Below, piece by piece: positions 31,845-32,414 of a DNA stretch of 38,714 bases; within the stretch, counting starts at the first letter, position 1, and each line of letters opens with the position of its first letter. Source of the stretch: Planctomycetia bacterium (GTDB lineage Bacteria > Planctomycetota > Planctomycetia > Pirellulales > JALHLM01); contig JAWXBP010000092.1 of the NCBI GenBank assembly GCA_034440135.1, positions 1 through 38,714 of the forward strand, given 5' to 3'. Made by a program: the position numbers and the translations under genes. The notes under the pieces were generated by a model. The model was not told where the DNA came from and made no database searches. It saw only the letters and a list, made by a program, of their open reading frames with translations.

Positions 31845-32414
31845 ATGTACGAACGCTTCACGCCCCGCGCGCGTTGGGTCATGGAACAGGCCGGCCATGT
31901 GGCCAAACGCATGGAGCACGATTACATCGGCACGGAACATGTGCTGCTGGCGCTCCTCCAAGAGCGGCACGGTCACGCCCAACGCGTGTTCAAGCAACTG
32001 CTCACGGACTTGAAAAAAGTCGGTAAGGAAACGGAAAAACTGGCCGAGCGCGGTTCGCACAACATGGCGATCGGCAAGCTCCGGCAAACCTCGCACGTCA
32101 AAAACGTCGTGAAATGCGCTCAAGACGAGGCCCATGCCAGGCAATTGCCGCTAGTCGGCACGGCGATGGTGCTGCTAGGGTTACTTCAGGAAGAGGACGG
32201 CATCGCCGCGATGGTGCTCACGCAAAACAAGGTCACGCACCGCGGCGTCGGCTCGATCCTACAGACCATGTCCAGGTCCCACGTCGATCTGGCGAAGGAA
32301 GACAACGTCGCCGCCGGTTCGCTGCTCAAACAGCCATGGGCAATCGGCGCAATCGCTGTTGTGGCCGCGCTGGTTTTGATCGCTGGCGTGGGGAAGGCAC
32401 TTGGTTGGTGGTAG
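31845..32414 (+). CDS. Stand-alone Clp N-domain protein with C-terminal membrane anchor
   Basis: A 189-aa protein. Residues 1-145 are a ClpC-type N-domain with two repeats and begin MYERFTPRARWVMEQAGHVA, clearly paralogous to ClpC of this window ([20 protein letters not shown]); [12 protein letters not shown] matches [12 protein letters not shown]. No AAA+ module follows. A helix (about 165-184, AIGAIAVVAALVLIAGVGKAL) would anchor it in a membrane with the N-domain in the cytoplasm. The N-domain binds adaptors such as ClpS, so it might capture adaptors or substrates at the membrane (inference). It has its own promoter, is 122 bp after the RRM gene and is convergent with the thioesterase over 20 bp. 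Confidence 0.9.
   Translation: MYERFTPRARWVMEQAGHVAKRMEHDYIGTEHVLLALLQERHGHAQRVFKQLLTDLKKVGKETEKLAERGSHNMAIGKLRQTSHVKNVVKCAQDEAHARQLPLVGTAMVLLGLLQEEDGIAAMVLTQNKVTHRGVGSILQTMSRSHVDLAKEDNVAAGSLLKQPWAIGAIAVVAALVLIAGVGKALGWW

Follow-up and report, generated by a model that had tools for sequence, protein, structure and literature searches.

The locus and its conserved neighbourhood

The gene discussed here lies in a stretch of 38,714 nucleotides from a Planctomycetia bacterium, which we call the window. It opens with an ATG and has a predicted product of 189 amino acids (Table 1). Clp_N is the sole Pfam domain of this protein, found in two matches (E = 1.6e-17, 63.9 bits, cut-off 20.7); neither an AAA+ part nor Walker motifs are present in the 189 residues. 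Residues 1-125 are 50% identical to the ClpC that is encoded in the same window (BLASTP, E = 3e-34). Among residues 127-145, 1 of the 14 positions that are nearly invariant in ClpC is kept.

Table 1. Coordinates of the gene, its parts and related features in the window
Feature	Position	Strand	Basis
ClpC, paralog with both AAA+ modules	1055..3613	+	Pfam, alignment
ClpS adaptor	17603..18070 (ClpS domain 17675-17887)	-	domain match
RRM-domain protein, upstream neighbour	31393..31722	+	Pfam; synteny kept in G001
Promoter-like site TTGATC-16-GATAAT, ~60 bp upstream of start	31758..31785	+	consensus match only
Predicted tail-anchored Clp_N protein, 189 aa, whole gene	31845..32414 (incl. stop)	+	Pfam; dN/dS 0.107 against the G001 ortholog
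Clp_N repeat 1, aa 1-71	31845..32057	+	T6, R8, E31 kept; dN/dS 0.034
Clp_N repeat 2, aa 72-145	32058..32279	+	K86 kept, E106 to A107, E89 to K90; dN/dS 0.161
Predicted transmembrane helix, aa 164-185, then tail LGWW	32334..32399	+	AlphaFold2, hydropathy; hydrophobicity kept in ortholog
4HBT thioesterase, convergent downstream neighbour	32435..32866	-	Pfam; synteny kept in G001

An ortholog of 189 residues with 87% identity is found in a second, independent MAG of Pirellulales that belongs to the same genus (JALHLM010000540.1, here G001), where it is likewise preceded by the RRM protein and followed by the thioesterase. When the C-terminal half was searched against the genome contigs, the contig of G001 and a single weak match from an actinobacterium were returned and nothing else, so that, within the sets searched, the precise ortholog group is limited to one genus. 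The ratio dN/dS between the two genes (Nei-Gojobori) is low over the whole length and lowest in repeat 1 (Table 1); it is 0.281 in the linker and 0.061 in the tail, which has few sites. All substitutions in the helix are hydrophobic or small. On these comparative grounds 31845-32414 is a functional gene, since its layout and synteny recur in the ortholog, dN/dS is about 0.11 and the hydrophobic tail has been kept.

On the downstream side, the gene on the opposite strand ends 20 bp past the stop codon. On the upstream side, the two species share 85% identity over the 122-bp intergenic stretch, which is above the value for synonymous sites. Both hexamers of the promoter-like site and their spacing are identical in the contig of the ortholog, so that the gene may have a transcript of its own. 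An inverted repeat (CCGCGATCAG / CTGATCGCGG, window 31766-31815) surrounds the promoter-like -10 site; in G001, part of the right arm of this repeat is missing. In the same 122 bp, RNA structure was insignificant (z = -0.78 and 0.0), and Rfam gave no match.

Just upstream of the RRM gene, genes for a MoxR ATPase, a DUF58 protein and a BatA-like protein stand in a row (window 26807-31283, forward strand). They are not found upstream of the ortholog, where a different gene precedes the RRM gene, and we have rejected a fixed link to this cluster. There are no conserved neighbours that tie the gene to proteolysis.

A ClpC-type N-domain with a predicted tail anchor

The AlphaFold2 model, calculated from an alignment of 26 sequences, has a mean pLDDT of 89.7, mostly above 90 in the N-domain (an alignment of 3 sequences gave 45.5). 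It consists of a compact N-domain (1-145), a less certain linker and a separate helix (164-185). The N-domain superposes on 3fh2 with a VIA-align Z of 25.0 and an rmsd of 1.0 A over 144 residues, and Foldseek matches the model to ClpC N-domain structures with E = 2.8e-10. The initial annotation had described the first 145 residues as paralogous to ClpC; the predicted structure bears this out over the full length, and in sequence the similarity is slightly shorter (1-125).

The highest 19-residue Kyte-Doolittle mean, 2.45, is found at residue 165. This value was attained by 30 of 5000 shuffled versions of the protein and by none of the other frames of the same DNA. One C-terminal helix followed by a tail of four residues is the layout of a tail anchor, and the C-terminal stretch is such a single hydrophobic helix with a short tail. 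The description of the protein as an ATPase-less ClpC N-domain with a membrane anchor, which would have fallen with a missing hydrophobic helix, therefore agrees with the domain content, the hydropathy and the model. The same architecture was also found elsewhere, in the second MAG and in other parts of the phylum.

Residues of the binding surface

In ClpC of S. aureus, T7, R9 and E32 lie in the first phosphoarginine pocket or close to it and E106 is at the second; K85 edges the hydrophobic groove and contacts D356 of AAA1, and R9 forms a salt bridge to E435 of the neighbouring middle domain (PMC12583610). We compared these positions in an alignment of 74 Clp_N domains, 34 from planctomycete ClpCs and 40 others. 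Unless stated otherwise we use the S. aureus numbering; in the window protein T7 is T6, R9 is R8, E32 is E31, K85 is K86, E89 is K90 and E106 is A107.

T7, R9, E32, T81 and K85 are kept in the window protein and in its ortholog, so that pocket 1 is intact in both. On the other hand, E106, a glutamate in 34/34 planctomycete ClpCs, is replaced by alanine in both proteins, and the groove acid E89, likewise a glutamate in all 34 ClpCs, is reversed to lysine. E106 is kept in 35 of the 40 non-ClpC domains (standalone 27/29, multi-helix 5/5, single-helix 3/6). R122 is uninformative, because planctomycete ClpC itself has Q there. ClpC-invariant residues are not significantly fewer in repeat 2 than in repeat 1 (Fisher p = 0.38). 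We have therefore rejected a general decay of repeat 2; the loss is confined to specific sites. Judging by these residues, this is a re-specialised domain in which pocket 1 and the K85 face remain and the second pocket is lost, because the change of E106 breaks this pocket and that of E89 reverses the groove acid. Both changes argue against a plain mimic of ClpC.

Two further tail-anchored copies in the order differ in the first pocket: the one in G023 has E32 replaced by D, the one in G019 has T7 and R9 both replaced by S, and both keep E106. K85 is the sole functional position that is unchanged in all four tail-anchored copies of Pirellulales.

These residues bear on the earlier proposal that the protein could sequester adaptors. 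MecA uses both phosphoarginine pockets (PMC12583610), so with the second one lost, MecA-like adaptors that require both should not dock here as they do on ClpC. K85 is a modelled contact of ClpS in ClpC1 of M. tuberculosis, and the equivalent lysine is kept in the window protein; mycobacterial ClpC1 binds ClpS even without its N-domain (PMC6274998). Sequestration is possible for ClpS, but not in the manner of MecA.

Comparison with known Clp_N proteins

The protein resembles the N-domain of ClpC (PF02861) in its two Clp_N repeats, in its fold (1.0-2 A rmsd) and in the kept pocket 1 and K85; it differs by having no AAA+ modules, by its C-terminal helix and by the changes at E106 and E89. Mycobacterial ClpC2 also has a standalone ClpC-type N-domain (8ad9_A, Z 21.5, rmsd 1.9 A over 145 residues). 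ClpC2 is a partial homolog of ClpC1 that acts as a cyclomarin sponge in mycobacteria; its Clp_N stands at the C-terminal end, and a non-homologous N-terminal part dimerises, binds DNA and autoregulates (PMC10030653). The window protein, by contrast, begins with Clp_N at residue 1 and has the membrane helix after it. The three residues of ClpC1 on which cyclomarin critically depends (F2, F80, E89) are all replaced, by Y2, Q81 and K90; the first two are different in planctomycete ClpC as well.

The plant chloroplast proteins ClpT1 and ClpT2 share the ATPase-less Clp_N fold (4y0c_A, Z 19.6; 4y0b_B, Z 17.6), but they are soluble, attached to the ClpPR core and without a membrane helix. ClpT1 binds Hsp100 chaperones (PMC4243950). 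A Clp_N double domain without AAA+ is also found in the phage family phrog_35667 (P0001 match, E = 6.6e-19), whose proteins have other C-terminal parts (transmembrane C-terminal helix in 0 of 25 examined). The viral contigs L093-L117 carry such a double domain in 25 of 26 loci, in proteins of ~200-500 aa, with the match mostly at 1501, and 7/7 tested viral proteins match phrog_35667, a family of unknown function. These proteins may serve the phage as decoys for the ClpC of its host or may modulate it.

Similar in layout are other planctomycete proteins in which Clp_N is followed by one hydrophobic helix (L044, L050, L084, L070); their linkers and helices are different, and L070 has a further stretch past the helix. 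Our literature searches turned up no Clp_N protein anchored in a membrane, which is weak evidence of absence. ATPase-less Clp_N proteins are known already (ClpT, ClpC2, phrog_35667), none of them described with a membrane helix in the literature consulted; on that weak evidence, the membrane helix on such a protein would be new.

Distribution and origin

A match is present in 278 of the 296 genomes of the order, mostly ClpC alone. Inspection of the matches showed Clp_N with one C-terminal helix in 4 of the 296 genomes, which belong to three families (the genus of the window twice, G019 and G023). One Pirellulales family has Clp_N with several helices (G018, G034), and other genomes of the order have soluble standalone or fused copies. 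Outside the order, a tail anchor is found in G330, a helix followed by another stretch in G368, and Clp_N with one or several helices further on in G298 and G351. All these counts depend on the E-value limits that were applied and should be read as minimum figures. Predicted tail-anchored forms are thus sporadic in Planctomycetes, and at 4 of 296 genomes they are no core part of ClpC control.

In the tree, the window pair stands on a long stem of 1.46 changes per site, whereas the N-domains of ClpC are almost unchanged. The test for monophyly of the tail-anchored copies (p-AU 0.256 and 0.37) favours neither one clade nor several.

The ClpC pathway and the possible function

The window itself encodes ClpC and ClpS. 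The mechanical open reading frame of ClpC opens at 1010, and its real start, MYERFT, is at 1055; by alignment, D356 and F436 are unchanged in this ClpC, and an acidic residue stands at the position of E435. The genome also has two ClpP genes side by side (ClpP1/P2), a McsA gene that adjoins the gene of the protein arginine kinase McsB, and a candidate ClpB, named from an AAA-bearing frame and a weak Clp_N match. With ClpC, ClpS, ClpP1/P2 and McsA/McsB encoded, the ClpC pathway is present.

We tentatively favour, at somewhat less than an even chance, a membrane receptor or tether for clients or partners of ClpC that is tail-anchored and faces the cytosol. A duplicated N-domain of ClpC would have become a separate membrane protein, held by its C-terminal helix and directed towards the cytoplasm. 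Pocket 1 and the face formed by the groove and K86 would then bind a client, an adaptor or the ClpC protein and keep it close to the membrane, where ClpC-ClpP1P2 would work or be kept waiting. The initial annotation had suggested that the protein could bring clients to a membrane-bound protease. For it we count the predicted fold and helix, the ortholog and the low dN/dS; the kept T7, R9, E32 and K85 together with the partner sites of ClpC (D356, F436 and the acid at 435); the presence of McsA/McsB, ClpS and ClpP1/P2; and the constancy of K85 in the four Pirellulales copies. Against it stand the lost second pocket and the reversed E89, by which part of the ClpC binding surface is gone, the rarity of tail-anchored forms and the lack of a conserved neighbour linked to proteolysis.

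An unlikely explanation is a sponge or decoy that would absorb adaptors, toxic peptides or phage proteins targeting the N-domain of ClpC, much as ClpC2 does with cyclomarin in mycobacteria. Standalone Clp_N proteins with such a job are known (PMC10030653), and K86, which is kept, lies where cyclic peptides and MdfA bind (PMC12583610). A sponge would, however, need to be abundant and would be easier to make in soluble form, and a membrane anchor would limit both; moreover, the cyclomarin-critical residues are absent and E89 is reversed.

Rather unlikely, too, is that the domain acts in trans by docking on the middle domain and AAA1 of ClpC, thereby recruiting ClpC to the membrane or shifting the balance between its resting and active states. 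The equivalents of R9 and K85, whose partners in the S. aureus protein are E435 and D356 (PMC12583610), are kept, and so are the partner residues in the ClpC of the window. In ClpC, however, such contacts come from a covalently attached domain, and the side of the second pocket, where the N-domain touches the middle domain of its own subunit, is altered.

That the domain is a co-opted peptide-binding module with an unrelated membrane function and no link to ClpC seems improbable. The long stem before the two orthologs, set against ClpC N-domains that hardly change, would fit this, as would the lack of a linked protease gene and the fusion of Clp_N to unrelated partners elsewhere (e.g. ThiD2/TMP-TENI), but repeat 1 has retained its pocket and contact residues and is under stronger constraint than any other part. 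A decaying duplicate without function, to which the divergence of repeat 2 and residues 127-145 might point, is scarcely credible and is largely refuted by purifying selection (dN/dS 0.107), with the frame intact in two species and the hydrophobic tail kept.

All adaptors of ClpC that have been characterised to date bind its N-domain (PMC12583610). If the receptor or tether reading is true, a motorless N-domain bound to the membrane would be a means of spatial control of ClpC proteolysis. The planctomycete phylum is known for its elaborate internal membranes. It is conceivable, if doubtful, that Planctomycetes repeatedly detach the ClpC N-domain into membranes, where it would act as a surface receptor for phosphoarginine or degrons and direct cytosolic ClpCP proteolysis there. 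The protein is small and testable: E31 and K86 are clear targets for point mutation, and the helix is one for deletion.

Further Clp_N architectures

The genome of the window encodes a second standalone Clp_N protein (G000:C302, L056 ~1486-1632, forward strand), which is divergent, 185 aa long and without a helix. In L047 (5542-6411, reverse strand), a four-cysteine motif and a UVR-like tail come after Clp_N and by eye are reminiscent of McsA, with no Pfam match besides Clp_N. Three proteins of one Pirellulales family (L048:4915-6108 and L049:5423-6583, both on the reverse strand, and L052) consist of Clp_N, a middle region and ~4 hydrophobic helices; the middle region of L049 has a weak HAAS match below the cut-off. 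In L053 (5840-7423, forward strand), Pfam matches indicate an in-frame fusion of Clp_N to ThiD2 and thiamine monophosphate synthase (TMP-TENI). The fusion gene adjoins clpC in divergent orientation, and L051 and L062, from two other genomes, have a similar layout by sequence.
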